A DNA stretch of 64,000 nt from Lysobacteraceae bacterium CU05-9 (GTDB lineage Bacteria > Pseudomonadota > Gammaproteobacteria > Xanthomonadales > Xanthomonadaceae): contig SWJS01000001.1 in assembly GCA_007556525.1 (NCBI GenBank), positions 464,346 to 528,345 on the forward strand, written 5' to 3'. Every line of letters begins with the position of its first letter. The first letter of the stretch is position 1. Below are positions 41,886-63,425 of this stretch, in pieces. The notes below the pieces were generated by a model. It was not told the DNA's origin, made no database searches, and was given only the letters and a program-made list of their open reading frames with translations. Position numbers and translations under genes: made by a program.

Positions 41886-41940
41886 GTCGCGTTACTACTT
41901 TCAAAAAGGCGAATCCGCTATTTTAGCAGATCGCACCGCC

Positions 41941-42837
41941 CTACTTTATCCAGAACTTGAAGCGGTCGGTCGGTCGAATTTGAAAAACCGTCCCGCCGAA
42001 TTGAACGTTCAACTTGCCTTTGGTGGCTTCGAACGATGGATCCAACCAGTCACGTTCGAGCGAAGCGCAGCGCGTGACATCGCGCAGATCAATCAGCACA
42101 TCCGTATCGAGCGACGCGGCCGCTGCGTCCGTGCGCATCATGGCATCACCGTCCGCCCAATCCCACATCGCCTTGAGTTCATCGTTCGGTGACATCAGCA
42201 TCGCACGCGAATTCAACTTAGGCACCGACGCCGCCGACGAACTACGCCACGGCCACATCAAGTTGATCGCATGCGCACCGCGGCGTCGACGAGCTTCATT
42301 CACCGGATGGTCGTGCAATGCAATCTGCAAGTCATTGATCACCGAACGCCACGAGCGCGAAGCCTCGTCTCGGGTTTCACCACCCGGAAAGTGCTCGAGC
42401 AAATCCTCACCCAACACATCCCAGGTCGGCGTGAATGAAGTCAATGCACGCGACGACGGCACTCCAAGATACGCGCGATCCGGCAGCGGCCAATGCAACA
42501 CCATGCCGTGTTCATCCAACACACTCTGCAATGACGCAAGTAACGACACGCGCTCGGAATCCGAAATATTGAGCATGTGCCCAAACCCCAACATCACCAC
42601 GCCATTCATATCAGGAACGACGGATGCAGGATCTAACCGCAACCACACCAAATCGGGCGAAGCCAATTCACCATGATCCAAGCGATACGTCGCTTCGACC
42701 AACGGCCACTCTGACTCGTTCAAGCCGGAGAACAACGATGGCGCCTCCACCTGCGATGCCCTCGCGAAACGCAACCGCCATGCATCGGAAAAACTCCCAT
42801 GCAACTCCGACAGTTCGGCGAGCAGCAGCGTGATCAT
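41941..42837 (-). CDS. Conserved hypothetical protein (COG4255-like)
   Basis: The 298-residue protein has no signal peptide or membrane span. It has a Trp- and acid-rich middle (PTWDVLGEDLLEHFPGGETRDEASRSWRSVINDLQIALHDHPVNEARRRRG in part) and INLMWPWRSS near residue 192. In Xanthomonas-like genomes a protein of this kind between greA and prfB is sometimes called a phosphoglycerate-mutase-like regulatory protein (COG4255), from memory. I see no mutase active-site motif, so function is unknown. It begins 9 bp after the greA stop, within the same operon. Confidence 0.75.
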   Translation of the reverse strand: MITLLLAELSELHGSFSDAWRLRFARASQVEAPSLFSGLNESEWPLVEATYRLDHGELASPDLVWLRLDPASVVPDMNGVVMLGFGHMLNISDSERVSLLASLQSVLDEHGMVLHWPLPDRAYLGVPSSRALTSFTPTWDVLGEDLLEHFPGGETRDEASRSWRSVINDLQIALHDHPVNEARRRRGAHAINLMWPWRSSSAASVPKLNSRAMLMSPNDELKAMWDWADGDAMMRTDAAAASLDTDVLIDLRDVTRCASLERDWLDPSFEATKGKLNVQFGGTVFQIRPTDRFKFWIK

Positions 42838-42846
42838 CTCAATGCA

Positions 42847-43326
42847 TCAATCGCGGTATGACACTTCAACGATTTCGTATTCGCTGACACCGCCCGGTGC
42901 TTCGATGGCGACGGAATCGCCTTCGTTTTTGCCGATCAAAGCTCGTGCCACCGGCGAAGAAATCGCGATCATGCCTTGACGGATATCGGCTTCGAGATCG
43001 CCGACGATTTGATAAGTTTTTTCCTCGTCCGTATTCACATCCGCCAAAACCACATGCGCACCGAACACAACGCGCGAACCTGCATTCAACGACGCCGTGT
43101 CGATCACTTGCGAGTGCGACAACTCGGATTCCAGCTGTTTGATGCGACCTTCGATGAAACCTTGTTGCTCACGCGCCGCATGATATTCGGCGTTTTCCTT
43201 CAAGTCGCCGTGATCACGCGCTTCCGCGATCGCCGCGATGACCGCAGGACGTTGCACCGACTTCAGTTCTTCCAGTTCAGCGCGCAAGCGTGCGGCGCCT
43301 TTCGCAGTAATGGGGGCTTGTGCCAT
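42847..43326 (-). CDS. greA: Transcript cleavage factor GreA
   Basis: GreA enters the RNA polymerase secondary channel and stimulates cleavage of backtracked RNA. The 159-residue protein has an N-terminal coiled coil with the acidic tip in [20 protein letters not shown], about residues 36-55, and a C-terminal FKBP-like domain ending in [15 protein letters not shown]. The carB gene lies 65 bp upstream and the COG4255-like gene 9 bp downstream, so it is probably in the car operon. Confidence 0.96.
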
Positions 43327-43391
43327 GACAAAAAAATCTCCCGGACGCGAACCTCCCGATTCGCATCACTTCAATCCAATAATCCAGTTGT

Positions 43392-46300
43392 TTATGCGTG
43401 CAGCTGGCTATGCAATTCCTGCAGCGAGTGCACCGTACCTGTACCACGGTACTCCATCGAGTCCACAAAGGCTCGTGCGCCGCTCACCGTCGTCGAATAA
43501 GTCAGTCGGTGTTGCAACGCTTCACGGCGGATCGAGAACGAGTCGTTGATCGCCATGCGGCCTTCTGTGGTGTTGATAATGTACACAATTTCGCCGTTCT
43601 TGATGAGATCGACGATATTCGGACGACCATCCGTCACCTTGTTGACGTACTCACACTCAACGCCATTCTCCGACAGGAACGTTTGCGTGCCCGACGTTGC
43701 GACGATGTCGTAGCCCATTTGACGCAACTTCTTGGCAACCACCAAAACACGCTTCTTATCCGGATCGCGCACCGAGATAAACACCTTGCCGGAGGATGGA
43801 ATCGCCTTGATGCCTGCCGCTTCCTGCGCACGTGCAATCGCCGCCGCAAAGTTCGTACCAACGCCCATGACTTCACCGGTCGAACGCATTTCAGGTCCGA
43901 GGATCGGATCCACGCCCTGGAATTTCGCAAATGGGAAAATCGCTTCCTTCACCGAGTAATACGATGGAACGATTTCCTTCGTCGCACCCTGCTCTGCCAA
44001 CGTCATGCCGGCCATGCAGCGTGCCGCAATTTTGGCAAGTGGTTTGCCGATTGCCTTGGAAACATAAGGCACCGTACGGGATGCGCGCGGATTCACTTCA
44101 ATCAAGTAGATCGTTTCGCTGCCATCTCCGTCGTATTTGATCGCGAACTGCGTGTTCATCAATCCAACGACACCGAGTGCCTTCGCCAATGCACGGACTT
44201 GCTCGCGCAACTTATCCTGCGTGCGCGGAGACAAAGAATACGGTGGCAGCGAACACGACGAGTCACCGGAGTGAACGCCGGCTTCTTCGATGTGCTCCAT
44301 GATGCCGCCGATCAGAACGTTGCCGTCCTTGTCCGCAATCACGTCGACGTCGACTTCAACGGCGTTATCGAGGAATCGATCCAACAAAACCGGCGAATCA
44401 TTCGACACCTGCACCGCATCGCGGATGTAACGCGTCAAATCCGCATCGGAATGCACGACTTCCATCGCACGACCACCAAGGACGTACGAAGGACGCACAA
44501 CCAGCGGATAGCCAATTTGCGATGCCAGGGTCAATGCTTCATCCGGATTGCGCGCGGTACGGTTCAGCGGTTGTGCCAAACCAAGCTCTTCCACCAACTG
44601 CTGGAAGCGCTCACGATCTTCCGCCAAGTCGATGCTGTCCGGCGTTGTGCCGATCACAGGCACACCATTCGCTGCCAACGCACGCGCGAGTTTCAACGGA
44701 GTCTGACCACCGTACTGCACGATCACGCCCTTCGGCTTCTCCAAATGCGCAATTTCCAGCACATCTTCCAACGTCAACGGTTCGAAGTACAAACGATCCG
44801 ACGTGTCGTAATCGGTGGAAACAGTTTCAGGATTGCAGTTGACCATGATCGTTTCATAGCCATCTTCGCGCAACGCCAAAGATGCATGCACACAGCAATA
44901 GTCGAATTCGATACCCTGACCGATGCGGTTAGGACCGCCGCCGAGGACCATGATCTTTTCACGGTCCGTTGGATTAGATTCGCACTCATCTTCGTACGTC
45001 GAATACATGTACGCGGTTGCCGTTGCGAATTCACCTGCACAGGAATCGACGCGCTTATAAACAGGACGCACTCCGAGTGCCTGACGCAACGTACGCACTG
45101 CAGTCTCATCAGACTTCGTCAACGCAGCAATGCGGGCATCACTGAAGCCCATGCGCTTGAGTTGACGCATGCGTACCTTATCCATGCCGGCAAGGCCCTG
45201 CACTTCAACGTCGCGTTCAACTTCAATGATGTGCTCGATTTGATCGAGGAACCAAGGATCCACAAACGAAAACCTATGCACGTCTTCCAACGACATGCCC
45301 GCACGGAATGCATCCGCAATATAAAAAATCCGTTCAGGACCCGGCGCCTTCAATTCATAACGCAGCGTGTCGAGGTCTTCGAATGATTCGAGGTCCAGCT
45401 CAATTGGATCCAAGCCAACCTTGCCAATTTCCAGTCCACGCAATGCTTTCTGCAACGACTCCTGGAACGTGCGTCCCATCGCCATCACTTCACCAACCGA
45501 CTTCATCTGCGTCGTCAATCGCGCATCGGCCTGCGGGAATTTCTCGAACGCAAAACGCGGAATCTTCGTCACGACATAATCGATCGAAGGTTCGAACGAT
45601 GCCGGCGTTGCACCGCCCGTGATGTCATTGCGTAGTTCATCAAGCGTGTAACCGACGGCCAACTTCGCAGCGATCTTCGCAATCGGAAAGCCCGTTGCTT
45701 TCGATGCCAGCGCAGACGAGCGCGAGACGCGTGGATTCATTTCGATGACGACAACGCGGCCATCGCGTGGGTTGATTCCGAACTGCACATTCGAACCACC
45801 GGTGTCCACGCCGATCTTGCGCAGGACCGCGATCGATGCATCACGCAGCCGCTGATATTCCTTATCCGTCAGTGTTTGCGCAGGAGCAACCGTAATCGAG
45901 TCACCGGTGTGCACGCCCATGGCGTCAAAGTTTTCGATGGAGCAAACGATGATGCAGTTATCCGCAGTATCGCGGACCACTTCCATCTCGAACTCCTTCC
46001 AACCGAGCACGGATTCTTCAACGAGAATTTCAGACACTGGCGAAAGCTCGAGACCGCGCTTGGCAATCTCTTCGAACTCTTCCTTGTTGTAAGCGATACC
46101 ACCACCCGTACCACCCAACGTAAAGGATGGACGGATGATTGTTGGATAACCGACCTTGGCTTGCGTCGCGACGGCTTCTTCAAACGTCTTTGCAACTTCC
46201 GCCTTCGGACATTCCAAGCCAATGTCTTGCATCGCCACGCGGAACAATTCACGGTCTTCTGCCATCCGGATCGCGTCGCGTGATGCACCGATCAATTCGA

Positions 46301-46637
46301 CGTTGTACTTCTCGAGCACACCGTTATCAGCGAGATCCAAAGCACAATTCAACGCAGTCTGACCGCCCATCGTTGGCAGCAATGCATCGGGCTTCTCCTT
46401 GGCGATGATCTTCTCGACCGTTTGCCAATTGATCGGCTCGATGTAAACCGCATCCGCCATTTCCGGATCCGTCATGATGGTCGCCGGGTTACTGTTGACC
46501 AGCACAACCCGGTAACCCTCGTCACGCAAAGCCTTACATGCCTGCGCCCCGGAATAGTCAAACTCACAGGCTTGTCCGATAACAATCGGTCCCGCGCCGA
46601 TGATGAGAATGGTCTTCAGGTCGTTACGTTTTGGCAT
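43392..46637 (-). CDS. carB: Carbamoyl-phosphate synthase large chain
   Basis: With CarA it makes carbamoyl phosphate for arginine and pyrimidines. The protein has 1081 residues. It consists of two homologous ATP-grasp halves; [37 protein letters not shown] opens the first and [25 protein letters not shown] the second. [20 protein letters not shown] and its copy [20 protein letters not shown] bind metal and ATP. The C-terminal MGS-like regulatory domain is complete. It is separated from carA by two S9 peptidase genes, about 3.9 kb. Confidence 0.97.
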
Positions 46638-46673
46638 GTTGCTCTCTTATGGATGAAACGGTGAAAAACTAAC

Positions 46674-48575
46674 TTACTTTCCGGCACCGATGTGCCGGTC
46701 GAAAAATGCCGCGGTCCTTTCGGCAGCCTTCACTTGATTCTCGTTCGATACGAAGCCGTGTCCTTCCTTAGGCTCGACGAGTACTTCTTCAGGGCCCTTA
46801 CCAGCATCCTTCAAAGCCTTGGTGAATACATTGAATTGTGACATCGGAACGCGCTCATCCATGGCGCCGTGAATAAGCATCACCGGCACTTTCAACTTGG
46901 ATACGTTGTAAACCGGTGACTGTGCACGTCGCTCTTCAACGGTTGTTGGGTAAACACGCTTCAAGTATTCACGGCCGGAATTACTCAATTGAATGTCGCT
47001 GTCCTTCGCCAGTTGGTCAAGATCATATACCCCGACATAGCCGACTGCACAGCGGTATAAATCCGGTTCGCGGATGACACTCTGCAATGCTGCGTAACCG
47101 CCGTAAGACGCACCGTAGGTGCAGATTCGATTCTTGTTGACCACACCGTCCTTGACAAGCGATTGCACGGCATCCGTCATATCGTCAATCATCGTGGTAC
47201 CCCAATTGCGGTAGCCCATTTTCTCAAATGAATTGCCGTAACCACCCGAACCGCGGAAGTTAACCTGCAATACTGCGTAGCCGCGGTTTGCGAAGTATTG
47301 CACCTCCGGGTCAAAGCCCCAGTAGTCGCGCGGTCCGTGGGGACCACCATGGGGATGCATGATCAAAGGAAGGTTTTTCCCATTTGAACCGTTTGGGACG
47401 GTAAGGAAACCATGCAGTTTCGTGCCATCACGGCCTGTAAAGGTGATCGGATTGGACTGTGACATCTGCGAAGGTTTGATCCACGGCATCGCAGCCATCA
47501 GGAAGCGAGCCTTGCCAGTGCGATGGTCATACAAATAAAAACTGCCCGGATCCGTGTCACTGTATGCTCGGAACAAGATCAGGTTCCCGTCGAGCGTTTT
47601 GCCGCGGAATTCCACTACCTTGTCATCAAACGAGTTGATCAAACCACCGAAGATGCTTGCTTCCTTCGATTTACGGTCTACGAACTCATAGTAGGGAACG
47701 CCATCCTGATAGCGGACAGCAGCCAGATTCCTTCCATCAAATGTGGAAACCGTCCCTTCAATGTCGGATGGTTTAGAGGCATAAATCACCTCATCCTTAC
47801 CGGTTGCGAGATCACGCAGCACCAAGCGTTCCGGTTCGCCGTGATCACTGACCGCCATATAGGCGTGGGTTCCATCGCTTGCCAGCTTCAATGGTCGGAT
47901 TGCGCCGTCTCCCATTGATGACTCATGAATTTTCGTCCAGTTATCCGAGTCCCGGCGGTAGACGTAGAACTTGGTGTCGTCCTTGGACCCTGTGGCAAAC
48001 GCAGCTTCTCCATTTGCATTAACGAAAAACGAACCAGGCGACAGCGGAGCTGCGGCAATCTTCGCCAAATTCGCGGAATAGACGTTCAGCTTGTAAAGCG
48101 TTGCCGTCGGTTGATTGCGCGAGACAATGATTGTGCGTGGATCCGCAGGCGTGGTATCAACGATCGTGTACGCCGCACCAAGTTCGAAATACTTCTTGTC
48201 AGTATCATCCACGTTGACCAAGAGCACATTCGGCAGCAATCGCGGACGTTCCTGACTATCTTCTTTCTTCGCCATGGTAATTGCGATGCGATTGTCATTG
48301 ACCCAAACGGTCCGTGCAATATGATGTCGCGGACCAAAGTCCCATTTACCCAATGGTTTCAAGTCCGCTGTTTGCATTGCGACTAGAATCGTGCGGTCAC
48401 CCTTGGGAACTTCGACCGTCATGAACTCCCCGGTCGGCGACAGCGTCAAGTTCTGCGCCTGCATATCCTTGAAGAAGTCCATCGTCGGAATGCGTGGTGC
48501 TTGCGCGATCGCGACCGATGCCGTTGTTGCAAACATCAGCGCGACCAAAAAACTCATTGAACGCTTAAATTTCAT
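46674..48575 (-). CDS. Secreted S9 family (prolyl oligopeptidase-like) peptidase
   Basis: The 633-residue protein starts with a signal peptide, MKFKRSMSFLVALMFATTASVAIAQ, so it acts in the periplasm or outside. A beta-propeller-like first half (repeats such as GEFMTVEVPKGDRTILVAM) precedes an alpha/beta-hydrolase domain. The nucleophile is in TYGASYGGYAALQS, the acid in IHGAMDERVPMSQF and the histidine in EGHGFVSNENQ. The domain resembles acylaminoacyl peptidases and dipeptidyl peptidases. It is a tandem paralogue of the next gene, 15 bp away; carB starts 36 bp downstream. Confidence 0.93.
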   Translation of the reverse strand: MKFKRSMSFLVALMFATTASVAIAQAPRIPTMDFFKDMQAQNLTLSPTGEFMTVEVPKGDRTILVAMQTADLKPLGKWDFGPRHHIARTVWVNDNRIAITMAKKEDSQERPRLLPNVLLVNVDDTDKKYFELGAAYTIVDTTPADPRTIIVSRNQPTATLYKLNVYSANLAKIAAAPLSPGSFFVNANGEAAFATGSKDDTKFYVYRRDSDNWTKIHESSMGDGAIRPLKLASDGTHAYMAVSDHGEPERLVLRDLATGKDEVIYASKPSDIEGTVSTFDGRNLAAVRYQDGVPYYEFVDRKSKEASIFGGLINSFDDKVVEFRGKTLDGNLILFRAYSDTDPGSFYLYDHRTGKARFLMAAMPWIKPSQMSQSNPITFTGRDGTKLHGFLTVPNGSNGKNLPLIMHPHGGPHGPRDYWGFDPEVQYFANRGYAVLQVNFRGSGGYGNSFEKMGYRNWGTTMIDDMTDAVQSLVKDGVVNKNRICTYGASYGGYAALQSVIREPDLYRCAVGYVGVYDLDQLAKDSDIQLSNSGREYLKRVYPTTVEERRAQSPVYNVSKLKVPVMLIHGAMDERVPMSQFNVFTKALKDAGKGPEEVLVEPKEGHGFVSNENQVKAAERTAAFFDRHIGAGK

Positions 48576-48590
48576 AACTGCCCCTCAGTG

Positions 48591-50495
48591 TTATGGGTTG
48601 TTCGGAGTTGGACCGAGATGCTTGCGCAGGAACGCCGCCATCTTCGGGTAAAGATTCATTTGCGCCTTGAACGCGTAGAACCCGTGACCTTCGTTCTTCT
48701 CGACAACCGTCACTTCAGGCGGCTTACCGGCCTTCTCAAGTTCGCGCTTCAGGAAGTCGTACTGCGAAATTGGCACGCGAGGATCCTTTGCACCGTGGAC
48801 CAACATCACAGGCACGTTAATCTTGTCGATGTTGAAACCTGCCGATTGCGCATTGCGTGCGCCACGATCCGACGGGAACACCAGGTCCTGGTAAGCACGG
48901 CCCGACTTGCGCTTGGCAACGTCACTGTCAGTGAGCCACAGATCCATGTTGTACATGCCGACATAACCGATCGCGCACTTGTACATGTTCGGCTCGCGCA
49001 CAATGCTCTGCAGTGCGGCGTAACCACCGTAGGACGCCCCGTACGTACAAACGCGCTTCGGATCGACGAAGCCTTGCGACACAGCCCACTTCACGCCGTC
49101 CGTCATGTCATCAATCATCTTCAGACCCCAGTTGCGGTAGCCCATTTTCTCAAAGGCATTACCGTAACCACCGGAACCGCGGAAGTTCACCTGCAATACT
49201 GCATAGCCGAGATTTGCCAGATACTGCACTTCCGGATTGAAGCCCCAGTCGTCGCGTGGACCATGCGGACCACCGTGCGGATGCAAAATCAACGGAAGGT
49301 TGCGGTGTTCTGCGTCCTTCGGCATCGTCAAATAACCGTGAATGGTCACACCATCGCGGGCTTTGTATGTAATCGGCGTCATCTCGGACATTTGATCCGG
49401 TTTGATCCAATCCATTGAGCTGACGAGAAAGTTCGCCTTATTGGTCGGACGGTCGAACAAGTAGTAGCTACCCGGATCCGTATCACTGAAGACATGCATC
49501 AAAATCTTGTTGCCATCCTTCGAGATACCGCGGAAACGAACGGCTTTGCCTTGATCCGTGAAGCTGTTGATCAAGCTTGCATATGTGCGCGCTTCAGGAT
49601 GCGTCTTGTTGATGAACTTGTATTCCGGAAAACCATCCTGGTAATACACCATCAAAATTTCCTTGCCATCCGAACTGCGCACGACACCTTCAGGGTCGAC
49701 TGTTTGCGATGGAACGAGGACCGTTTCCTTGTTCGTCTCCGGATCAATCATTGCGATGCGCGATGGTTCACCCTTGTCGCTCAATTCGAAGTAGGCATTC
49801 TTGCCATCGGGGAACATGCCAATCGGATTCTTGTTGCCTTCGCCCATGTCGAATTCGGAGATCTGCTTCCAAGCGTTTCCGTCACGGCGCAGCACGTAAG
49901 ACTTCGTGCCTTCCTTGCCACCTGTTGCATACTTCACATTGCCTTGCGAGTCCACCAAAAAGCTACCCGGACGCAGCGGCGCCGTCGCCACCACAACCGT
50001 GTTGCCGGTGTAGACATTCAACTTATACAAGTAGGCATCCGGCACTGAACGCGACACGAGAATATTCTTGTCATCGTCTTTCAACGTCGAGACGATCTGG
50101 TAATAGATGCCGTTGCCAATTTCGATGCGTTGGCTGCCATCAACGTTCGTTGCGAACGCAACGCCGTCCTGACCCGTCAAGTCGAACTTACCTTCACGGT
50201 AGCTCACGAACATGATGAAACGGTTGTCATTGACCCACAGAACACGATCAACGTGACTGCGTTCGCCCAGTTCCCAACCACCGACCTTCTTCATGTCGGA
50301 GACGCGGAAAGCGGTAAGAACCGTCTTGTTCTCGACAGGCGTCGCCACCGTAATGTATTCGCCCGTCGGCGAGAGCGAGACGCTCGTAAACTCAGGATCC
50401 TTGAAAAAATCCCCAACCGGAACAACGGCGGCAAATGCTGCATTCACCCAAACCGCCATCACTAACAACAATCCGAGTAAGCCCCTCTTCAACAT
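48591..50495 (-). CDS. Secreted S9 family peptidase, tandem paralogue
   Basis: The ATG at 50495 gives MLKRGLLGLLLVMAVWVNAAFA, a good signal peptide; the open frame extends upstream to 50636 but into the carA gene. The 634-residue protein shows the same plan as its neighbour: VGDFFKDPEFTSVSLSPTGEYI matches MDFFKDMQ...LSPTGEFM, and the active-site motifs are TYGASYGGYAALQS, VHGAKDPRVPISQY and EGHGFYAFKAQ. The two probably arose by local duplication. It starts 31 bp after the carA stop on the same strand. Confidence 0.93.
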   Translation of the reverse strand: MLKRGLLGLLLVMAVWVNAAFAAVVPVGDFFKDPEFTSVSLSPTGEYITVATPVENKTVLTAFRVSDMKKVGGWELGERSHVDRVLWVNDNRFIMFVSYREGKFDLTGQDGVAFATNVDGSQRIEIGNGIYYQIVSTLKDDDKNILVSRSVPDAYLYKLNVYTGNTVVVATAPLRPGSFLVDSQGNVKYATGGKEGTKSYVLRRDGNAWKQISEFDMGEGNKNPIGMFPDGKNAYFELSDKGEPSRIAMIDPETNKETVLVPSQTVDPEGVVRSSDGKEILMVYYQDGFPEYKFINKTHPEARTYASLINSFTDQGKAVRFRGISKDGNKILMHVFSDTDPGSYYLFDRPTNKANFLVSSMDWIKPDQMSEMTPITYKARDGVTIHGYLTMPKDAEHRNLPLILHPHGGPHGPRDDWGFNPEVQYLANLGYAVLQVNFRGSGGYGNAFEKMGYRNWGLKMIDDMTDGVKWAVSQGFVDPKRVCTYGASYGGYAALQSIVREPNMYKCAIGYVGMYNMDLWLTDSDVAKRKSGRAYQDLVFPSDRGARNAQSAGFNIDKINVPVMLVHGAKDPRVPISQYDFLKRELEKAGKPPEVTVVEKNEGHGFYAFKAQMNLYPKMAAFLRKHLGPTPNNP

Positions 50496-50526
50496 ATTTC
50501 CGCTCTCCCAAACAAATCCGATAACT

Positions 50527-51657
50527 TTAGTTCGTGCGCGCAGCCAGAACTTTCGCAAACTGTTCAAACAATCCTGCCACATCATGTGGACCTGGGCTCG
50601 CCTCCGGGTGTCCCTGGAAACTGAACACAGGCGCATCTTTCAACGCAATGCCCTGATTGGTACCGTCAAAAAGCGATCGATGCGTCACCTCCACCGACTC
50701 CGGCAACGTCGCTTCATCAATGCAGAAGCCATGGTTCTGCGAAGTGATCATGACGCGTCCAGTCTTGAGATCCTGGACAGGGTGATTCGCACCATGATGT
50801 CCGTGCGGCATCTTCATCGTCTGCGCACCAACCGCCAGTCCGATCAACTGGTGACCAAGGCAAATTCCAAACGTTGGGATCTTCTTATCAATGAACGTAC
50901 GAATCGCATCAATTGCATAATCACAAGGCGCCGGATCCCCTGGACCATTCGACAGGAAAATCCCATCCGGGTTTAACGCCAATGCTTCTTCTGCAGTCGT
51001 CGTTGCAGGCACGACCGTCAATCGACAACCGCTATCGACCAACAACCGCAAAATATTGAGCTTCACCCCGAAGTCATACGCCACAACATGGAACTTGCCG
51101 TCGCCGTGCGTGACTTCGTTCTTGTCGAGGTCCAGCGTGCCTTCGTTCCAGTCGTAGTTCTTCGGCGTCGACACGACCTTCGCGAGATCCATTCCGGACA
51201 GCCCAGGAAATCCGCGTGCCGCCGCAAGGGCTTGTTCGACATCGATGTTGTCGCCAGCCATTACCGCGCCATTCTGGTTGCCCTTCTCGCGGAGGATGCG
51301 CGTCAGCTTGCGCGTGTCAATGTCGGCGATGCCAACAACGCCGTTGTCGCGCAGCCAATCTTGCAGCGAAACTTGAGCACGCCAATTCGAATGTAAACGC
51401 GGCACATCGCGGACGATCAAACCGGATGCCCAGATGGTCGTTGCTTCGTCATCAAGTTGAGTGCAACCGGTGTTACCGATATGCGGATAAGTCAGCGTCA
51501 CCAGCTGGCGTGCATACGATGGATCGGTGATGACTTCCTGATAACCCGTCAGCGCGGTGTTGAAAACAACTTCTCCGGCCGTGAGTCCGGGTGCGCCTAC
51601 TGATACGCCCTCGAAAATGGTGCCATCTTCGAGTACGAGAATTGCGGGTTGGGTCAC
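50527..51657 (-). CDS. carA: Carbamoyl-phosphate synthase small chain
   Basis: The glutaminase subunit that feeds ammonia to CarB. The protein has 376 residues and starts at GTG ([17 protein letters not shown]). The C-terminal class I amidotransferase domain has the nucleophilic Cys in [15 protein letters not shown] and the His/Glu pair in [11 protein letters not shown]. It is the first car gene after dapB, with a 125-bp gap. carB does not follow directly because two peptidase genes intervene. Confidence 0.96.
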
Positions 51658-51782
51658 TGGTATCGCCTATCGTGAAAATGAGTGAGAATGCAGCGCTAGA
51701 ATGCGCTTTGCCACATTTCCGTCGCGTCCGAGCGTTGAGAAATGCTGCTACAGGCGAGTATCTATTTTACAGATTTCGCCCA

Positions 51783-52475
51783 TCAATTTCCAGACGGTGC
51801 ATCAAGAAAAAGCAAATCCTTCACCGAATACCGCCCCGGTGCGCATCCATCGATCAAACGACCACAACGCAAAGCACCTCTCGCAAAAATATCGCGATTG
51901 GTGGCACGGTGAATCAACTCAATCCGCTCACCTAAGCCAGCAAACTGCACCGTATGCTCTCCTACGATGTCACCAGCTCGTATCGCGCTGTATGACGCCG
52001 ATGCGCCGCCACGTGCTGCAGCATCCCCGAGTGTCAGGGCGGTGCCGCTGGGGGCGTCTTTTTTGTGAATATGATGCTGCTCGATCACGTCGCATTGCCA
52101 GTCAGCGTCGCGCAGCATTGCCGCCGCCTGCTCCACCAATTGGTCCAGCACTGCAACACCCAACGAAAAATTACTCGCCCATAGGACTGGAACTTGCATC
52201 GCCAAAGCATCGAGTGCGCTGAGGCCATTTTCGTCGAGACCGGTCGTGCCCGTCACGAGCGCGGCATTGCATTCTGCACACAACGCGGTGATGCCGGTGA
52301 TCCCTTCAGGCAGCGAAAAATCAATCGCCACATCAAACTCCGGCGCAGAAGAAAGCTCGTTACGGCGAGGTGCCGCAACGAGCTCTAAGTCCGGATATTC
52401 AGGGATCAAACGAAGCAGCGACTGTCCCATGCGGCCGGTGCCGCCGTGAATCAAAATACGTGTTTTCTTCGACAT
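51783..52475 (-). CDS. dapB: 4-hydroxy-tetrahydrodipicolinate reductase
   Basis: It reduces the dihydrodipicolinate precursor in the lysine/meso-diaminopimelate pathway. The 230-residue protein has an NAD(P) loop, HGGTGRMGQ, near residue 9, and the substrate motif EQHHIHKKDAPSGTAL near 133-148, plus TGTTGL. At 230 residues it is shorter than E. coli DapB (273), as in many Xanthomonadaceae. dnaJ lies just downstream... in reading order dnaJ precedes dapB by 20 bp. Confidence 0.93.
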   Translation of the reverse strand: MSKKTRILIHGGTGRMGQSLLRLIPEYPDLELVAAPRRNELSSAPEFDVAIDFSLPEGITGITALCAECNAALVTGTTGLDENGLSALDALAMQVPVLWASNFSLGVAVLDQLVEQAAAMLRDADWQCDVIEQHHIHKKDAPSGTALTLGDAAARGGASASYSAIRAGDIVGEHTVQFAGLGERIELIHRATNRDIFARGALRCGRLIDGCAPGRYSVKDLLFLDAPSGN

Positions 52476-52495
52476 ACCCCATAGGATAAGTCAGA

Positions 52496-53635
52496 TCACG
52501 AAGTCATGCGCTCCCAGATGCCTTTCACGCCATCCATGAAGGTCGATGTCTTCGGCGAGTGACGGCGAGCCGCTTCCTCACCCACGAACGTGGCTTCAAA
52601 CTTCTCCAGCAATTCGCGCTGTTCCGACGTCAAATTAATCGGTGTCTCGACGCTAACGTGGCAATACAAGTCACCCACGCCATACGAACGCACCGACTTC
52701 ACGCCCTTGTCGCGCAGCCGGAAAATCTTGCCGGTTTGCGTCTCCGGTGGAATGCGCAACTCTGCCTTGCCGTTCAAAGTCTGGATCGTGATCGAATCAC
52801 CGAGCGCCGCTTGCGAAAGACGCAATGGAACTTCGCAATGCAAATCATCGCCATCGCGCTTGAACAACGCGTGTTCCTTGACGTCAACTTCGACAAAAAG
52901 ATCCCCAGCCGGCGTACCTTGCGGACCCGCTTCACCCTCACCTGCCAGTCGAATGCGGTCACCCACATCCACACCTGCAGGAATCGTGACCTTCAACTTC
53001 TTCGAGGTACGGACGCGACCTTGACCGCTGCAATCCTTACATGGATTGACCACACTGCGACCACTGCCATGACATTGCGGACACGTCTGCTGCATGCGGA
53101 AAGGACCGCGCTGCATGATGACCTGACCTTGACCACGGCACTGACCGCAAGTATCGATCTTGCCGTCCGACGAGCCGGAACCATCACAAGTCTTGCACTC
53201 GTCGAGCGTCGGAAGTTCGATTTGCTTTTCGAGGCCAAAAACCGCCTCTTCCAACGTCAGCGAAACGCGATATGCGAGGTCGTTCCCGCGAACCGGCCCA
53301 CGTGCGCCACCTTGGCCAAAGATATTTCCGAACAAATCGCCAAAAATATCCCCAAAGTCCGCACCACCACCGAATCCACCAGGTCCGCCGCCGAATCCGC
53401 CGGTGCCATGCTCAAACGCCGCATGTCCATGCTGATCGTACATCCGACGCTTATTCGCATCGGACAGGACTTCGTACGCTTCGTTGCATTCCTTGAAATT
53501 CGCTTCAGCTTGAGCATCACCCGGATTGCGGTCCGGGTGATACTTCATTGCACAGCGGCGGTAGGCTTTCTTGAGGTCTTCGTCGGTCGCACTTCGCGAA
53601 ACGCTGAGAACCTCGTAATAATCGCGCTTGCTCAT
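52496..53635 (-). CDS. dnaJ: Chaperone DnaJ
   Basis: The co-chaperone that delivers clients to DnaK and stimulates its ATPase. The J-domain (1-70) has the HPD tripeptide in [10 protein letters not shown] Gly/Phe-rich linker (about 72-105) follows, then four CxxCxGxG zinc-binding repeats: [24 protein letters not shown] and CKDCSGQG. The C-terminal substrate-binding domains are intact. The product is 379 residues. It begins 3 bp after the dnaK stop, so they share an mRNA. Confidence 0.97.
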
Positions 53636-53638
53636 TGA

Positions 53639-55561
53639 TTACGACTTGTTCTTGTCGTCCTTCACTTCAGTGAATTCCGCATCGACTACGTCGTCCGATG
53701 GAGCAGCACCCGCGTCAGCACCTGCTGCGCCTGCGCCTGCCGCCGCACCTTGCGCTGCCTGCGAGAGCTCCTGGAACAACGATTCAAGTTGCTTCGACTT
53801 GGATTCAATCTGACCCTTGTCGTCGCCCTTCATGGCAGTCTCCACGTCGGCAATCGCGGTTTCAACGCGACCCAGCAGATCCGGTGGCAAGGATGAACCG
53901 TGCTCACTGATCACTTGGCGCGAACCATGGACCAACGCGTCCGCTTGGTTGCGGGCTTGCACGAGTTCATGGAACTTCTGATCTTCTTCACGGTTGGATT
54001 CCGCGTCATTGATCATGCTCTTGATTTCGTCTTCCGACAGACCCGAACCGGCCTTGATCTCGACCTTCTGTTCCTTGCCCGTCTTCTTGTCCTTCGCAGT
54101 TACGTTGACGATACCGTTGGCGTCGATGTCGAACGAAACTTCGATCTGTGGCACTCCGCGTGGTGCTGGTTCAATGCCCGACAAGTTAAACGATGCCAGC
54201 GACTTGTTGTACTTCGCCTGCTCGCGCTCGCCTTGCAGCACATGCACCGTCACTTCCGGCTGATTATCAGCAGCGGTCGAGAAGGTCTGCGAAGCCTTGG
54301 TTGGGATCGTCGTGTTCTTTTCGATGATCTTCGTGAACACACCACCCATGGTTTCGATACCCAGCGACAGTGGCGTTACGTCGAGCAGTAAAACGTCCTT
54401 GACGTCACCGGCCAGAACACCACCTTGAATCGCAGCACCCAAAGCCACTGCTTCGTCCGGGTTCACGTCCTTACGTGGTTCCTTGCCAAAAAACTCCGCA
54501 ACCGCCTGTTGGACCTTCGGCATACGGGTTTGACCACCGACCAGGATCACTTCGGTGATATCGCTCGTACGCAAGTTCGCATCGTTCAGTGCAATGCGGC
54601 AAGGTTCGATGGACTTCTTGATCAGGTCATCCACCAGCGCTTCCAACTTTGCGCGGGTCAACTTGATGTTCAAATGCTTTGGACCAGACGCGTCTGCCGT
54701 CACGTAAGGAAGGTTGACGTCCGTTTGCTGTGCGCTCGACAGTTCAATCTTGGCGCGTTCTGCAGCATCCTTCAGGCGTTGCAGTGCCAGAGGATCCTTG
54801 CGCAGGTCGATGCCGCTTTCCTTCTGGAATTCTTCGACCAAGTAATCGATGATGCGCGTATCGAAGTCTTCACCGCCAAGGAACGTATCACCGTTCGTCG
54901 CGAGAACTTCGACTTGCATTTCGCCGTCGACGTTGGCGATTTCGATGATCGATACGTCGAACGTACCACCGCCCAAGTCATAAACCGCGATCTTGCGGTC
55001 GCCGCCTTGCTTGTCGAGACCATACGCCAAAGCAGCCGCGGTTGGTTCGTTGATGATGCGCTTAACTTCAAGGCCGGCGATCTTGCCGGCGTCCTTCGTG
55101 GCCTGACGCTGCGAATCGTTGAAGTATGCAGGAACGGTGATGACCGCTTCCGTGACCTTCGTGCCGAGATAATCTTCGGCGGTCTTCTTCATCTTCGCCA
55201 AAACTTCCGCCGACACCTGCTGCGGTGCCATCTTCTTGCCATCTGCGGTTTCGACCCATGCGTCGCCGTTGTCATGCTTGATGATCTTGTACGGAACGAG
55301 GTCGATGTCCTTCTGCACTTCCGCATCGTCGAACTTGCGTCCGATCAAACGCTTCACTGCGTAGAAGGTGTTGTGTGGGTTGGTGACAGCTTGACGCTTC
55401 GCCGTTGCGCCAACTAGGACTTCGCCGTCCTTGGTATACGCAACAACGGATGGAGTGGTACGGTCGCCTTCCGCATTCTCAATGACGCGTGGCTTGCCGT
55501 CTTGCATGATGGCAACACAGGAATTGGTGGTGCCTAAGTCAATGCCGATAATTTTTGACAT
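53639..55561 (-). CDS. dnaK: Chaperone DnaK (Hsp70)
   Basis: The ATP-driven chaperone of 640 residues. The nucleotide-binding domain starts [32 protein letters not shown] and the substrate-domain linker [19 protein letters not shown] follow. The disordered C-tail ends in [19 protein letters not shown] sigma-32-like promoter lies in the 104-bp gap in front, besides the one ahead of grpE. dnaJ follows at once. Confidence 0.98.
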
Positions 55562-63071: not shown

Positions 63072-63425
63072 GGGGGTGCACCTGGCTTCGACGGGGGTAG
63101 CGAAATCACTTGGCGCATGTCGTGGGGGTAACTTTCCACGTAAATCCAGTTACGAAAATCTAGTTGCCAACGACGACAACTACGCTCTCGCCGCTTAAGG
63201 CGTAGCCCTGAAACAACTTGTGCCCATGCTCGTTGCGTAAGGTTATTATCATGGGATCGCTTGGGTGGGCCACCTGTCCTCCCCTTGTTAACCCTTAACA
63301 GGTTGGTCCTTCGGTGCGCTGCGCACACTGTGCTACCGCGGGACGAGATTTAACAGTGAGCTAAGCATGTAGTGCCGGGGATGGAGTGCCTTCGGACGGC
63401 GGTTCGATTCCGCCCACCTCCACCA
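63072..63425 (+). ncRNA. ssrA: tmRNA (ssrA)
   Basis: The RNA acts as both tRNA-Ala and mRNA to rescue stalled ribosomes. The ends pair as GGGGGTG (63072-63078) with CACCTCC (63415-63421), followed by ACCA, so CCA is encoded. The tRNA-like part has GGTTCGATTCC. The tag frame at 63166-63198 reads ANDDNYALAA then TAA, almost the E. coli tag ANDENYALAA. The length is 354 bases. SmpB, its partner, is encoded 1.6 kb upstream. Confidence 0.97.

Follow-up and report, generated by a model that had tools for sequence, protein, structure and literature searches.

In Xanthomonas citri the genes for the two subunits of carbamoyl-phosphate synthase are separated by a single open reading frame (ORF) of 444 bp, and the run carA-orf-carB-greA-rpfE forms one operon by reverse transcription PCR (RT-PCR), with a single promoter, placed by prediction 102 bp ahead of carA, and with repression by glutamate, uracil and arginine, according to the available part of the report (PMC4619228). 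The same part of that report also describes a carA-orf-carB-greA operon in Pseudomonas aeruginosa, and states that the orfs of Pseudomonas and Xanthomonas are dissimilar to each other. Here we analyzed a stretch of 64,000 nucleotides from Lysobacteraceae bacterium CU05-9 (contig SWJS01000001.1, positions 464,346 to 528,345; hereafter the window), in which two genes for predicted exported peptidases of the S9 family, S9a and S9b, lie between carA and carB. The genome (2.35 Mb, 15 contigs) is a small-genome member of the Arenimonas/Lysobacter family.

The first-pass annotation had located two paralogous peptidase genes in the carA-carB interval, in the orientation of both car genes, and both the ORF calls and the Pfam matches bear this out: the intergenic distances are 31 bp (carA-S9a), 15 bp (S9a-S9b) and 36 bp (S9b-carB), and the span 46674-50495 covers exactly the two peptidase genes. 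The order on the minus strand is dnaK, dnaJ, dapB, carA, S9a, S9b, carB, greA, where dnaK and dnaJ were named by reading the sequence, and both carA and carB score above the NCBIfam cut-offs. The features of the locus are as follows.

51783..52475, minus strand: dapB, the upstream gene (ORF, Pfam); outside the operon in X. citri by RT-PCR in the available part of PMC4619228
51764..51792, minus strand: promoter-like element upstream of carA, TGGAAA, 17 nt, TAAAAT, with the -10 at 51769-51764 (consensus scan)
50527..51657, minus strand: carA, carbamoyl-phosphate synthase small subunit, GTG start (ORF call, domain and NCBIfam models)
48591..50495, minus strand: S9a, predicted exported S9 peptidase of 634 amino acids, prolyl oligopeptidase fold, signal-peptide-like N terminus (ORF, Pfam, motifs, AlphaFold2 model)
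46674..48575, minus strand: S9b, predicted exported S9 peptidase of 633 amino acids, tandem paralogue of S9a (ORF, Pfam, tree, motifs)
43392..46637, minus strand: carB, carbamoyl-phosphate synthase large subunit (ORF, domain and NCBIfam models)
42847..43326, minus strand: greA, next in the run (ORF, domain and NCBIfam models); an operon member in X. citri in the available part of PMC4619228

The window therefore has the X. citri-type order carA-insert-carB-greA on one strand, and the likeness to the operon described in PMC4619228, as far as the available part goes, extends to dapB in front of carA, to an insert on the same strand, and to a promoter about 100 bp upstream of carA. The insert itself differs, being a single 444-bp orf in X. 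citri and S9 peptidases in the window. The P. aeruginosa operon, in the same part of that report, shares with the window an insert between carA and carB together with greA.

The S9 genes recur at this place in relatives. A scan with S9a as the query over one genome per species, which finds close relatives only, yielded 31 named loci in genera including Arenimonas, Lysobacter, Luteimonas, Pseudoxanthomonas, Silanimonas and Chiayiivirga, and the order carA-S9-carB was found in 24 of them. Among the other seven, five are distant S9 genes (33-36% identity) located elsewhere, one (L046) is a member of the same clade located elsewhere, and in one (L037) the S9 gene is followed by carB on a contig that starts 142 bp ahead of the S9 match, too near to show carA. 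We also fetched 100 carA-carB regions, 82 from the family and 18 from the order, the latter chosen partly for a long gap; 12 of them (11 family, 1 order) harbor S9 in the gap, four of which coincide with named loci by an identical carB, while a fifth (L215) looks like L048. Four relatives of the same family (f1) have a carB identical to that in the records of Chiayiivirga sp., Arenimonas donghaensis, Arenimonas fontis and Lysobacter tolerans. The S9 gene at this site is co-directional in the relatives, and the distance from the carA stop to the S9 start, as set by a script, lies between -4 and 94 bp. Two S9 genes in the gap were seen in the window alone among the named loci and the 100 fetched relatives. 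The recurrence rules out that S9 cargo is unique to this genome, and because many relatives have a gene of this S9 clade at this very position, the arrangement is not due to chance. The first-pass annotation had also allowed that the arrangement might prove universal in the family and already described. The carA-orf-carB type is indeed described in the available part of PMC4619228; however, S9 cargo is present in only 12 of 83 family genomes (window included, carA and carB on one contig), and no S9 genes between carA and carB were found in a literature search covering titles and abstract openings of the top matches, with most subscription journals outside its reach. Frameshift-like breaks, representing either assembly error or real change, were seen in the S9 gene at L057 8001-9877 (Arenimonas daejeonensis), and likewise in the carB of G011 at L135.

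The S9 genes are one of several kinds of insert at the junction. Counting genomes with both genes of a pair on one contig, 41 of 83 family genomes have carA and carB separated by 400 bp or more, and 22 of the 83 by 1000 bp or more, whereas in the same family the control junctions carB-greA and pheS-pheT reach 400 bp in only 3/82 and 1/85 genomes, respectively, and neither ever reaches 1000 bp. Among sampled genomes of the class that fall outside the order, carA and carB lie at least 400 bp apart in 2 of 73, in one of them because the genes are 187 kb apart. The first-pass statement that carA and carB are normally adjacent needs correcting for this family. Of the gaps in the 100 fetched loci, 47 are shorter than 250 bp, and the others contain S9 (12 loci), C465 (11), PF05635 (9), DUF6973 (7), DUF6973 with X200 (5), X200 alone (2), GxxExxY (PDDEXK_3; 1), four other combinations (1 each) or no assigned family (2 loci), where some X200 assignments rest on weak matches. 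PF05635 cargo is a four-helix protein of the 23S rRNA-IVP type. C465 (112-590 amino acids) and X200 (about 200 amino acids, with signal-peptide-like starts) are families with no Pfam or NCBIfam match; X200 had been considered as DUF2059, which is ruled out, as it has no Pfam or NCBIfam match to that family. Non-S9 cargo, alone or combined, thus comprises at least five families, namely DUF6973, 23S rRNA-IVP, GxxExxY, X200 and C465 across the gaps L125-L224, and among the named loci further cargo lies behind S9, namely, X200 and C465 in L036 and L057, and X200 alone in L043 and L047. A hydrophobic N-terminal segment opens one single protein and most rows of X200, C465 and DUF6973, but also 21 of 52 background ORFs of the window, which gives no case for an enrichment of exported proteins among the cargo; three X200 rows that lack the segment are probably mis-started. 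The X. citri orf probably resembles the DUF6973 cargo, to judge by its length and its one-base overlap with carA. All assigned cargo hits in the 100 fetched loci point in the direction of carA. The carA-carB junction in this family is a cargo site for whole co-directional genes, and the unrelated cargo carried there by other relatives argues for a general cargo site. As a separate observation, three genomes of one genus (G004, G079 and G107; genus g5) have long spacers at all three junctions (carA-carB 479-544 bp, carB-greA 421-438 bp, pheS-pheT 290-417 bp), as if the spacers of this genus were expanded in general.

The phylogenetic tree of the S9 proteins (a quick IQ-TREE run) places the S9s of the gap in one clade with a support of 100 in the Shimodaira-Hasegawa-like approximate likelihood ratio test (SH-aLRT), apart from a sample of 14 other S9s of relatives and of other genomes. 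This clade also holds one S9 located elsewhere, the sole such case seen (L046, identical to G048:C6:17300-19138). S9a and S9b are sisters (support 97), with a branch of 0.85 for S9b and of 0.55 for S9a, and from this sister relationship we read the pair as a tandem duplication private to the lineage of the window. Assembly duplication as the source of the pair is ruled out, because the two paralogues are only 50% identical. The distances of S9 correlate with those of carB over 28 loci (Mantel r 0.63, reached by 0 of 5000 permutations), as would be expected under mostly vertical descent.

Both proteins match PF00326 (Peptidase_S9), S9a with an E-value of 4.8e-47 (160.6 bits) and S9b with 1.1e-52 (179 bits), against a curated cut-off of 22.6, and both contain the Ser, Asp and His motifs GASYGGYA, DxRVP and GHGF, to which we ascribe the catalytic-triad roles. 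A hydrophobic, signal-peptide-like segment, as read from the sequence, opens both proteins, which are thus probably exported. The AlphaFold2 model, made for S9a alone, has a mean predicted local distance difference test (pLDDT) score of 89.9 and consists of a beta-propeller plus an alpha/beta-hydrolase fold; its best match in the PDB is the acylaminoacyl peptidase 5l8s (template modelling scores 0.73/0.77, 19% identity). S9a and S9b share the S9 domain and the triad motifs, and S9a by its model also the propeller and hydrolase fold, with the acylaminoacyl peptidases and prolyl oligopeptidases (PDB 5l8s, 8wt1 and 2bkl), but differ from those enzymes in their predicted export and in the low identity of S9a, at most 19% among the best 50 structural matches shown. 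Neither protein approaches the cut-off of any named NCBIfam S9 subfamily: with the Dpp5 model NF053518, S9a scores 78.9 and S9b 90.9 bits against an equivalog cut-off of 900, and the cut-offs of the lasso-peptidase models also lie far above the scores of both.

The first-pass annotation had further proposed that the peptidases and carbamoyl-phosphate synthase share an mRNA. This is likely, and the support for it is indirect: the gaps are short, a consensus scan found no terminator-like site in the three gaps of the window, the promoter-like element of carA is conserved, and the corresponding run is one operon by RT-PCR in X. citri (available part of PMC4619228). The -10 of the window ends 106 bp upstream of carA, and a -10-like hexamer is present at the same place in 25 of 25 aligned carA upstream regions. 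Most likely, a single transcript begun at the carA promoter would read carA-S9a-S9b-carB-greA, so that the peptidases would rise and fall with carbamoyl-phosphate synthase, with low levels under an ample supply of arginine, pyrimidines and glutamate, as the repression was measured in X. citri. The S9 genes would then be passengers in the carAB operon, one S9 clade, predicted to be exported, having stayed in several genera and having duplicated in the lineage of the window. Taken as a whole, this explanation, with passenger peptidases at a cargo site, one message, and co-regulation with carAB, is in our judgment probably correct.

Several points weigh against this explanation. The consensus scans as such perform no better than on shuffled sequences (3 promoter-like sites versus 6.4 expected, and 14 terminator-like sites versus 10.8), and a minus-strand promoter-like site lies within S9b (47158-47130). 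The spacer from S9 to carB is long (134 and 220 bp) in a few relatives where no further cargo was recognised. At a threshold of 250 bp the control junctions are less clean (carB-greA 8/82, pheS-pheT 3/85). The Mantel correlation becomes weaker without the Pseudoxanthomonas clade (r 0.55, 33/5000), and at least 15 changes of S9 presence are required on the carB tree, which is a FastTree tree with many open forks, indicating that S9 was repeatedly lost or regained.

The alternative that survives best is that the junction simply accepts insertions, as translation of carA and carB need not be tightly coupled here, and that S9 is there by history alone; we give it somewhat less than an even chance. 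The mixed cargo, including PF05635 and GxxExxY genes, which we take to be small mobile or intervening-sequence genes, and the frequent absence of any cargo are what such tolerance would leave behind, but the two control junctions and the carA-carB junction of the wider class are closed at 400 bp in nearly all genomes, and the assigned cargo is co-directional without exception. A functional coupling, in which exported peptide hydrolysis would deliver arginine, glutamine and nitrogen at just the time of carAB derepression, seems to us doubtful. One S9 clade has been linked to carAB over a deep divergence (identity to S9a within the gap clade falls as low as 44-45%), and so long an association suggests some selection or, at the least, that the operon is stably inherited; moreover, the catalytic motifs are kept in both S9a and S9b, and the repression of the X. 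citri carAB promoter by arginine, uracil and glutamate (available part of PMC4619228) would fit. However, other relatives carry unrelated cargo or a gap of less than 250 bp, and many S9 matches lie elsewhere in these genomes, so scavenging need not depend on the car locus. The link from peptide scavenging to nitrogen, arginine and pyrimidine supply suggested in the first-pass annotation is unproven, and the mixed cargo weakens it. That S9a and S9b form an independent unit with their own promoter and terminator, merely lying inside the car locus, is quite improbable, since, although the RT-PCR in X. citri concerns cargo other than S9, a terminator plus a promoter would hardly fit into gaps of 31 and 36 bp, and none was detected there.

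In the carA leader, a conserved complementarity was found between the predicted start of the mRNA and the ribosome-binding region of carA. The elements in the window are as follows.

51655-51769, minus strand: carA leader with the conserved -10, CTCGCCTG and the complementary AGGCGA
51751..51758, minus strand: CTCGCCTG, first strand of helix P1, beginning at the 6th nucleotide past the -10 hexamer, with C6 T7 C8 G9 as the predicted start-site region
51663..51668, minus strand: AGGCGA, carA ribosome-binding region and second strand of helix P1, pairing with UCGCCU

UCGCCU within CTCGCCTG (51758-51751) is complementary to AGGCGA (51668-51663) just ahead of the GTG of carA. Among 65 unique leaders with a recognisable -10, the exact CTCGCCTG is present at a fixed distance past the -10 in 39, and variants of it in most others. 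The helix P1 cells are paired in 91.5% of cases in these 65 leaders, whereas sliding the register by 1-4 leaves no more than 43.6% paired, and when the ribosome-site blocks are swapped among the 31 distinct combinations, pairing drops only from 86.6 to 83.8%, with 14 of 2000 shuffles reaching the observed value. Variants that keep the pairs include CUUGC/GCGAG, CUCGC/GUGAG and CCGCC/GGCGG. RNAalifold applied to 56 leaders (alignment A2) predicts four helix P1 pairs and nothing else, at a weak -0.8 kcal/mol. In 55 distinct rows, 94.5% of the cells are paired, five cells are changed on both sides (reached by 2 of 500 shuffles), and the covariation score of helix P1 (0.091) exceeds those of all 500 shuffles. 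The case for helix P1 is lessened by the registers slid by +1 and +2, which score 0.075 and 0.081, by further pair types being no more numerous than in shuffles (428/500), by the omission of five poor pairers from the 55-row set, and by the relatedness among the leaders, which inflates counts of the covariation type. The bare pattern CTCGCCTG-N(70-99)-AGGCGA in 60 genomes was dropped as support; since a reversed-pattern control also finds many among the matches listed, only the fixed place of CTCGCCTG between the -10 and the start codon counts. As an observation apart from helix P1, a central hairpin CGGAC...GTCCG (alignment A2, columns ~33-62) has apparent compensatory changes, with register shifts between groups. 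No Rfam family was found at its gathering score in 41900-53700.

In enteric bacteria, pyrC and pyrD are controlled by nucleotide-sensitive switching of the transcription start site, with pyrimidines at positions 6-8 and a G at position 9 past the -10. The carA leader resembles these genes both in having C, T, C and G at positions 6-9 past the -10, at its predicted start, and in the complementarity of the mRNA 5' end to the ribosome-binding region. It differs in that the gene is carA, that the start is predicted, and that the predicted helix becomes weaker, yet persists, when three nucleotides are taken from the 5' end: in the window, an RNA begun at C6 is predicted to fold an 8-pair helix over the ribosome site (-34.0 kcal/mol), a single-sequence fold that is not significant alone (z -1.76), and one begun at G9 keeps 6 pairs (-30.6 kcal/mol, z -1.08). 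The pairing in the leader suggests pyrC-like control upstream of the peptidases. Tentatively, and with somewhat more doubt than confidence, we propose that carAB in the Lysobacterales would be under pyrC-like start selection, where the 5' end of mRNAs begun at C6 or C8 would pair back on the ribosome-binding site of carA, and that of mRNAs begun at G9 less so, tying the whole operon and its cargo to the pyrimidine pool. The pairing between the predicted start and the ribosome site of carA is new, none having been found by the literature search, with the same coverage of titles and abstract openings and most subscription journals out of reach.

Elsewhere in the window, a tmRNA gene lies at 63072-63425 on the plus strand (tag ANDDNYALAA).

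Taken together, the initial observation of two peptidase genes between carA and carB is right, their shared mRNA is likely and the metabolic story is unproven; the cargo site and the conserved carA leader reach further and are of greater interest. An odd insertion in a single genome thereby becomes a family-wide pattern, in which half of the examined family genomes interrupt the gene pair of a two-subunit enzyme with passenger genes, and carA-carB offers a well-suited natural system for asking why operons acquire genes unrelated to them. The order to which these bacteria belong contains plant pathogens and biocontrol species. The conserved pairing between the predicted start and the ribosome site provides a hypothesis on the regulation of a central pathway that can be tested directly and, if it is true, the junction would serve as a plug-in position for genes that gain from expression responsive to pyrimidines and arginine.

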